From Spirochaetales bacterium (GTDB lineage Bacteria; Spirochaetota; Spirochaetia; Sphaerochaetales; Sphaerochaetaceae): 64,000 bases of DNA. The notes beneath the pieces were generated by a model. That model was given only the letters and a program-made list of their open reading frames with translations. It had not been told where the DNA came from and searched no databases. The stretch lies in NCBI GenBank assembly GCA_012519115.1, contig JAAYQW010000082.1:16219-80218 (forward strand), read 5' to 3'. Positions 38,412 through 40,190 of this stretch are shown one piece after another. Within the stretch, counting starts at the first letter, position 1. Every line of letters begins with the position of its first letter. Position numbers and translations under genes: made by a program.

Positions 38412-38936
38412 ATGAAGAAGAATGAACGACTCTTGGTTGTCGTAGATATGCAAAACGATTTCGTTTCCGGCTCGCTTGGAACCGAAGAAGCGAAAAAGAT
38501 TGTTGATGGAGCCGTGGCCAAGATCAACTCGGAAGAAGGACTGGTCGCTTACACGCTCGACACCCACTTTGACGATTATCTCTCCACCAGTGAGGGGCTT
38601 TCTCTTCCCGTCGAGCACTGCATAAAAGGCAGTGAGGGGCATAAGCTGATTCCCGAACTTCGCGATCCCCTCAAAGATGCCAAGAGCTTTGAAAAACATA
38701 CCTTCGGCTCCGTTGACCTTGCCGAGTACATCCGGGACAACCCTCAGATCAAGGAAGTCGAACTGTTCGGTCTTTGTACCGATATATGTGTCGTCTCCAA
38801 CGCACTCATGATCAAAGCGATGCGGCCGGAGCTTGTGGTGAAGGTTGACGGAAGAATCTCCGCCGGAACCACCGCCGAGAGGCACAACGCCGCTTTGGAC
38901 ACGATGGAGTCTTGTCAAATTGTCGTAAAACGGTGA
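38412..38936 (+). CDS. Isochorismatase/nicotinamidase-family cysteine hydrolase
   Basis: LLVVVDMQNDFVSGSLGT; EVELFGLCTDICVVSNAL; AGGAGG upstream. Confidence 0.88.
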   Translation: MKKNERLLVVVDMQNDFVSGSLGTEEAKKIVDGAVAKINSEEGLVAYTLDTHFDDYLSTSEGLSLPVEHCIKGSEGHKLIPELRDPLKDAKSFEKHTFGSVDLAEYIRDNPQIKEVELFGLCTDICVVSNALMIKAMRPELVVKVDGRISAGTTAERHNAALDTMESCQIVVKR

Positions 38937-38999
38937 TTTTCATGGACAAGGTTCTCTCCTCCGAGTAGGATAGTGTATACCCTTTTGGAGGAGGCGCTG

Positions 39000-40190
39000 A
39001 TGCTGCAACCCCTATCTTATGTTCTTGTTACCCCATACACCGTTGCCAAAAGCAGGACCGGCGGTGTATTATCCCGCCTGCTTTCCCGGATCTCGCTCGA
39101 ACTCGTCGGTGCCCAGATGGTCACCTTTGACAAAGAGACCACGGAAGCGTTCGCCCAAATCATCGAAAGACGAAGCGCCGCGGCGTGTTGTGGCGCATCG
39201 CGGGATATCCTTGGTTCCTATATCCGACAAAACATGGGTCCATCAGAAGACGGGTTGCTCCACCGTTCCCTCTTTCTCGTGTTCCGTGGCGATAACCCGA
39301 CCAAGGAGCTCAGCAATGTCTGCGGCGCCTTCCAAAAAGATGCCTATGACGTTGAAACCGTGACAGGTGAATCGATCCGGGACACCTATGCGGATCTGAT
39401 CTATGCAGATGAGAGCAAACAGACGCTTCGCTACTTTGAGCCGGCGGTCATTACCGCCAGCGAGCAAAAGGAAGCGGAAGCGGTCATTAAACTCTTTGCC
39501 GAATGGCTCCCGACCCAGAACAACTTGATCCACAATCGTCCCGATAGTTGCTACGAGGATGTCGAGCGCACTTTGGTGATCATTAAGCCGGACAACTGGC
39601 GGCATGCCTCTTCCCGCCCCGGTATGATCATCGACATGTTCAGTCGGAGCGGATTGAGAATCGTTGCGATCAAAGTGCTGAAGATGAGCGTTTCCCAAGC
39701 GATTCAGTTTTACGGACCGACCAAGGAAGGTCTCAAAAAGCGTCTCGCCCCGATTTACGGAATGCAGGCTCGCGAGCTCCTTGAGCGGGAATTCAATATT
39801 CCCTTGACGGAAGAACTTGAGAATACCTTGACTGAATCATTCGGCGATATGTACAGCGAAGAGCAATTTGAGCGAATCGTCGAGTTCATGGCTGGAATCA
39901 AGACGTATGAGCGTCCAAAAGAGGAATGGGATGAGCCGGGATTGGTGAAATCGATGATTCTCGTCTACGAAGGAAAGGATGCGATCGGCAAGATTCGAAC
40001 GATCCTGGGAGCGACCGACCCGACCAAAGCCGCTGCGGGAACGATTCGCCGGGAATTTGGCTCAAATATCTGCATCAATGCCGCCCACGCTTCCGATTCC
40101 GTTGAAAGCGCGGTCAGGGAGATGGGGATTCTCGAAGTAGAAAAGAACCACCTCGGGGGAGTTCTCCAGCACTACGTAGCGAATCGCTGA
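39000..40190 (+). CDS. Tandem nucleoside-diphosphate-kinase-like protein
   Basis: C-terminal NDK motifs RTLVIIKPDNW, LGATDPTKAAAGTIRREFG, NAAHASDS; N-terminal half carries degenerate equivalents; GGAGG before ATG 39000. Confidence 0.8.
   Translation: MLQPLSYVLVTPYTVAKSRTGGVLSRLLSRISLELVGAQMVTFDKETTEAFAQIIERRSAAACCGASRDILGSYIRQNMGPSEDGLLHRSLFLVFRGDNPTKELSNVCGAFQKDAYDVETVTGESIRDTYADLIYADESKQTLRYFEPAVITASEQKEAEAVIKLFAEWLPTQNNLIHNRPDSCYEDVERTLVIIKPDNWRHASSRPGMIIDMFSRSGLRIVAIKVLKMSVSQAIQFYGPTKEGLKKRLAPIYGMQARELLEREFNIPLTEELENTLTESFGDMYSEEQFERIVEFMAGIKTYERPKEEWDEPGLVKSMILVYEGKDAIGKIRTILGATDPTKAAAGTIRREFGSNICINAAHASDSVESAVREMGILEVEKNHLGGVLQHYVANR

Follow-up and report, generated by a model that had tools for sequence, protein, structure and literature searches.

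A spirochaetal tandem protein that joins a catalytically dead NDK-fold half to a putatively active NDK

Background

Nucleoside diphosphate kinase (NDK) is the enzyme that balances NTP pools. In the 64,000-nucleotide stretch of contig JAAYQW010000082.1 of a Spirochaetales bacterium analyzed here (the window), one gene appears to encode the NDK fold twice, which raises the question what a half without catalytic residues contributes to the half that has them. The initial annotation described the product as a pseudo-NDK fused to an NDK, and this is borne out by profiles, fold and family conservation. Known NDK oligomers build on a beta2-beta2, head-to-tail dimer (PMC7554756), and a tandem can supply the dimer in one chain. 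The need for oligomerization is still argued, as in the debate on NME6 (PMC13256974).

The gene and its surroundings

Features of the locus are collected in Table 1. The mechanical ORF opens at GTG 38973, but nearly all homologues share the start M/EQ..LSYV and a Shine-Dalgarno-like stretch lies just ahead of ATG 39000. The latter is therefore the supported start, as originally placed, and the product counts 396 aa. Homologues align end to end (identity 61-91% in the genus), the nearest being a protein of a Sphaerochaeta MAG at 91% identity. The genome from which the window derives is Sphaerochaeta-like. A Pfam scan of the entire protein matched NDK as the sole family, with no DM10.

Three sigma-70-like matches were found around the gene against a mean of 1.7 in shuffles, and a search for Rfam elements near it found none. 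The upstream isochorismatase/nicotinamidase-like neighbour is kept in all five Sphaerochaeta regions that were inspected and is absent beside the tandem in other families. Among approximately 55 tandem regions examined, flanking genes agree within lineages only and no neighbour is common across families; the use of neighbours as a clue to an operon or partner was consequently dropped.

Table 1. Coordinates in the window of the tandem gene, its parts and its upstream region
Feature	Positions	Strand	Basis or remark
Isochorismatase/nicotinamidase-like gene	38412..38936	+	63 bp upstream of tandem gene, same strand
Sigma-70-like promoter match TGGACA-17-TAGGAT	38943..38971	+	Weak, not above chance for region
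GGAGGAGG, Shine-Dalgarno-like	38987..38994	+	Direct reading of sequence
Tandem pseudo-NDK/NDK gene	39000..40190	+	396 aa plus stop; ORF; homologues cover full length
N-terminal NDK-fold half without catalytic residues (residues 1-186)	39000..39557	+	PF00334 E 8e-4; hhalign E 2.9e-17; Foldseek NDKs
Beta1-alphaA-beta2 of N-terminal half (residues 5-42)	39012..39125	+	Contains equivalent of NDK dimer interface
Residue 151 (Ile), catalytic-His position of N-terminal half	39450..39452	+	L/I/M/F across 81 sequences
C-terminal catalytic NDK half (residues 187-396)	39558..40187	+	PF00334 99.5 bits
First insertion, between alpha1 and alpha2 (residues 239-289)	39714..39866	+	Same length in 80/81 sequences
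Second insertion, before beta3 (residues 298-315)	39891..39944	+	About 16 extra residues
H363, phosphorylatable catalytic His of C-terminal half	40086..40088	+	Invariant, 79/79 complete sequences

The C-terminal half

The claim that the C-terminal half is an NDK holds: its PF00334 score lies far over the curated cut-off of 27 bits and the catalytic set is intact. All 79 complete sequences share K196, Y238, R333, T339, R350, N360, H363, S365 and E374, and 72 of them have D366. This complete set and the NxxH[AG]S motif are shared with canonical single-domain NDKs (E. coli, Myxococcus), and judging from these residues the half probably has NDK activity. The tandem differs from canonical NDK in its insertions, which total about 60 residues, in having two more residues behind KPDNW and in the N-terminal pseudo-domain, and the NCBIfam single-domain ndk equivalogs give a best score of 109 against a cut-off of 155.

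The large insertion reported for this half is real, although it consists of two parts. The first comprises 51 residues against about 8 in canonical NDK (approximately 43 extra between Y238 and F290) and is helical in the AlphaFold model; together with the second it accounts for about 60 extra residues. A 207-aa single-domain NDK of the same class (L200, genome G133) carries an insert of another kind between alpha1 and alpha2, so extra residues there are not unique to the tandem. Its best PDB match is the Pyrobaculum NDK 1xqi. The latter enzyme, from P. aerophilum, has 195 aa with additional subdomains reported (PMC7554756); unlike the tandem it is a single domain, and no significant similarity of the insert was seen.

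The N-terminal half: fold and lost residues

The N-terminal half had been proposed to be a copy of the NDK fold, with a non-NDK prediction as the result that would overturn the proposal. Profiles, predicted fold and family conservation agree on an NDK-fold copy. Against PF00334 the half alone scores 19.7 bits, which is below the curated cut-off, and the family was matched by all 12 N-terminal halves scanned. In a comparison of profiles with hhalign, the N-terminal profile matches spirochaetal long-type single-domain NDKs with a score of 107.3 over 141 columns, whereas 20 scrambled or reversed profiles reach no more than 17.9. These NDKs were picked as the best matches, so that some of the score's strength reflects this selection; the homology to NDK is not in doubt. 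AlphaFold modelled the half alone with a pTM of 0.71 and a pLDDT of 69, and only NDKs appear among the 50 PDB matches listed by Foldseek. The half thus has the NDK (ferredoxin-like) fold and profile homology over its full length, at a Pfam score that is itself sub-threshold.

The closest sequence relatives found are long-type single NDKs of about 168-176 aa from other Spirochaetota classes. The likeness is visible in LIKPDGL.KSLTGN versus LVTPYT.AKSRTGG and in FENVVHTSDS versus YFEPAVITAS, the long-type sequence being given first. These relatives differ from the tandem in being catalytically complete, single-domain and unfused. The second pair also confirms that the catalytic His block is replaced, with Ile in place of His.

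Across the family, the equivalent of canonical H117 is L (44), I (24), M (9) or F (4) in 81 sequences, that of N114 is P in all 81 and that of K10 is T (76) or S (3). Positions equivalent to R87 (S/A/T) and T93 (L/F/I) are likewise replaced, these two equivalences leaning on a less certain stretch of the alignment. As the catalytic His and the phosphate-binding residues are replaced in all sequences, the half does not qualify as an active NDK. Two segments of this dead half are almost invariant in about 80 sequences, namely R-D-T-Y-A-D (residues 127-132, positions 39378-39395) and Y-F-E-P-A-V (residues 145-150, positions 39432-39449). The mean pairwise identity is 52% for the N-terminal and 61% for the C-terminal half, and the N-terminal half is, on the evidence of its sequences, under strong selection.

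A dead partner in the same chain

The dimer interface of M. tuberculosis NDK consists of residues 17, 19-21, 23, 24, 27 and 33-38 (PMC7554756). At the equivalent positions of the N-terminal half the column entropy averages 0.58 against 1.41 for the whole half (permutation p 0.00075, which is optimistic since adjacent positions are non-independent and the positions were mapped by us). From this alignment, the half appears to retain what corresponds to the dimer interface of canonical NDK, conserved above random positions of the same half.

Results for the whole chain were obtained with an AlphaFold model of moderate confidence (pLDDT 70, pTM 0.71, 15 sequences). Its nine best PDB matches in Foldseek are chains of 332-378 residues from doublet-microtubule structures, aligned over 376-403 columns with both halves covered (TM about 0.44-0.51, E about 1e-8); in the PDB sequence tables the matched chains of this type are named NDK 7, FAP67 and CFAP67A. 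Single-domain NDKs reach a TM of only 0.25-0.28 of the query. The model therefore fits two NDK domains in a mutual arrangement comparable to NME7/FAP67, with the beta2-beta2 pair unproven. Because the confidence is moderate and the rmsd to NME7-type chains amounts to 6-8 A, the interdomain geometry is not established.

NME7 carries tandem NDPK domains of which A is competent and B inactive (PMC13256974). As in the spirochaetal tandem, a competent and an inactive domain of NDK fold are thus covalently joined. The competent domain is the first in NME7 and the second in the tandem, a DM10 domain precedes the two domains only in NME7, and NME7 is ciliary, with an identity to the tandem protein of about 11-16%. 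Nothing seen here points to a shared ancestry of the two fusions.

On balance we consider it reasonably probable that the C-terminal half is a working NDK and the N-terminal half a dead pseudo-subunit, the two being paired as an intramolecular pseudo-dimer. The C-terminal half would carry out all phosphotransfer in a ping-pong reaction through phospho-H363, with the N-terminal half as its permanent, catalytically dead partner subunit. The halves would pair via their beta2 strands and alphaA helices, as two NDK subunits do in the common dimer, and one chain would form an asymmetric pseudo-dimer with a single active site. No Kpn loop is recognizable in the N-terminal half, for which reason higher assembly may be limited or different. 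What is observed for the beta2/alphaA pairing is the interface conservation and the match of the model to NME7-like chains at the rmsd given above; the pairing geometry of the halves is what we infer from these. Both observations favour the suggestion in the initial annotation that the fusion replaces NDK oligomerization within the molecule, and the pairing itself is plausible.

Some invariant residues of the N-terminal half lie beyond the interface (R127-D-T-Y-A-D and Y145-x-E-P-A-V), and their conservation may suggest that it is more than a scaffold. It might be argued that the half is a regulatory ligand-binding domain, in which a rebuilt NDK pocket senses a nucleotide or other metabolite and controls the C-terminal half. 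R127 (canonical R104) is R in 80 of 80 sequences, Y51 (canonical Y50) is Tyr (73) or Phe (6), and a new invariant set (T11-P-Y-T, K17, R19 and the two segments just named) lies on the pocket-forming segments. The Lys, the other Arg, Thr, Asn and His of the canonical site are lost in every lineage examined, and this replacement of most site residues weakens a sensor role, which we regard as rather improbable and as less likely than the pseudo-dimer with a dead partner. The earlier idea of a regulatory nucleotide sensor is thus weakened, since most of the nucleotide site is gone, but R127 and Y51 persist and new invariant residues occupy the same segments. A more elaborate version, in which a dead, strictly conserved half with a rebuilt pocket allosterically controls the live half, so that a regulated housekeeping NDK made by fusion of two lineages replaced a homo-oligomeric one, is in our view unlikely.

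Distribution

The tandem is not a one-off: in a survey of 395 Spirochaetia genomes from 133 genera, the N-terminal profile was positive in 70 genomes and 31 genera, and 22 of 23 same-genus relatives carry the tandem. Sampling covered Spirochaetota, and the single-protein contig scan picks up close relatives only. In other Spirochaetota classes sampled, the N-terminal profile matched open frames of 168-240 aa less strongly (E 1e-6 to 1e-13), and the 19 such frames that were read are all single-domain NDKs. No tandem homologue was found in the plasmids, phages and viral contigs searched; in plasmids and phages the C-terminal half is matched by single NDKs only. Extra N-terminal domains were considered for four homologues (L100, L105, L118 and L155). 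Their long N-terminal frames precede the conserved start and resemble neither one another nor the family in sequence, and are therefore read as chance open frames.

By our count a full-length single-domain NDK accompanies the tandem in 26 of the 70 genomes, and the other 44 have split tandem-type matches only. In Sphaerochaeta-genus genomes with a match, the tandem is the only NDK found. The same applies to the source genome, whose assembly is 83% complete, so that a second NDK could be missing from it. These counts bear on a further reading, in which the N-terminal half chiefly docks or localizes the protein to a partner, as for NME7 on microtubules, and the C-terminal half supplies NTP locally. 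The top structural matches are indeed NME7/FAP67-type chains, and in some lineages the tandem is retained beside a canonical single NDK. A general role is indicated, however, by the finding of no other NDK in Sphaerochaeta, and a conserved neighbour that would suggest a partner is absent across families; we consider docking as the chief role quite improbable. A dead partner subunit paired with a working NDK remains the reading we prefer.

Two tandem copies are present in nine genomes. In seven of these the HASD Asp of one copy is changed to A, S or N (L155, L156, L131, L127, L025, L097 and L107) and retained in the other, which might hint at split roles.

A separate observation concerns the 128 of 395 Spirochaetia genomes without any NDK match, several near-complete ones from the same family among them. 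In these, NDK seems to be dispensable or replaced.

Origin of the two halves

A tree of 81 sequences, built on motif-anchored segments, places all N-terminal halves on one branch and all C-terminal halves on another (100/100 each). The C-terminal halves group with short NDKs (support 100/93), and the N-terminal halves attach on the long-type side with a branch length of 2.5. The same tendency is seen in the profile comparison, where the N-terminal half scores 107 on long-type single NDKs and 35 on its own C-terminal half. The alternative is plain internal duplication, with the halves as sisters and one of them decayed. A clade of both halves survives the AU test (p 0.175), but the profile scores, the well-supported placement of the C-terminal halves and the long N-terminal branch all argue against it, and we hold this origin to be doubtful. 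Fusion of two NDK lineages is favoured by these sequence comparisons, and we infer that the N-terminal half derives from a long-type NDK. Of the description as a second diverged copy, the NDK homology stands; a copy made by internal duplication is disfavoured by the greater resemblance to long-type NDKs, at an AU test that does not reject it.

Conclusions

Tandem active and inactive NDK domains are already known from eukaryotic NME7. A full-text search of the open-access literature, with subscription papers mostly outside its reach, did not turn up any account of a tandem NDK in bacteria, and the bacterial case is apparently undescribed; tandem proteins are likely annotated automatically as NDK. 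The tandem adds a conserved bacterial pseudoenzyme domain to a family in which such tandems have been described in eukaryotes. If the preferred reading is true, the tandem, the only NDK found in Sphaerochaeta, would be a naturally occurring pseudo-dimer within a single chain, one half live and the other dead, and would allow the contribution of the partner subunit to be tested cleanly.
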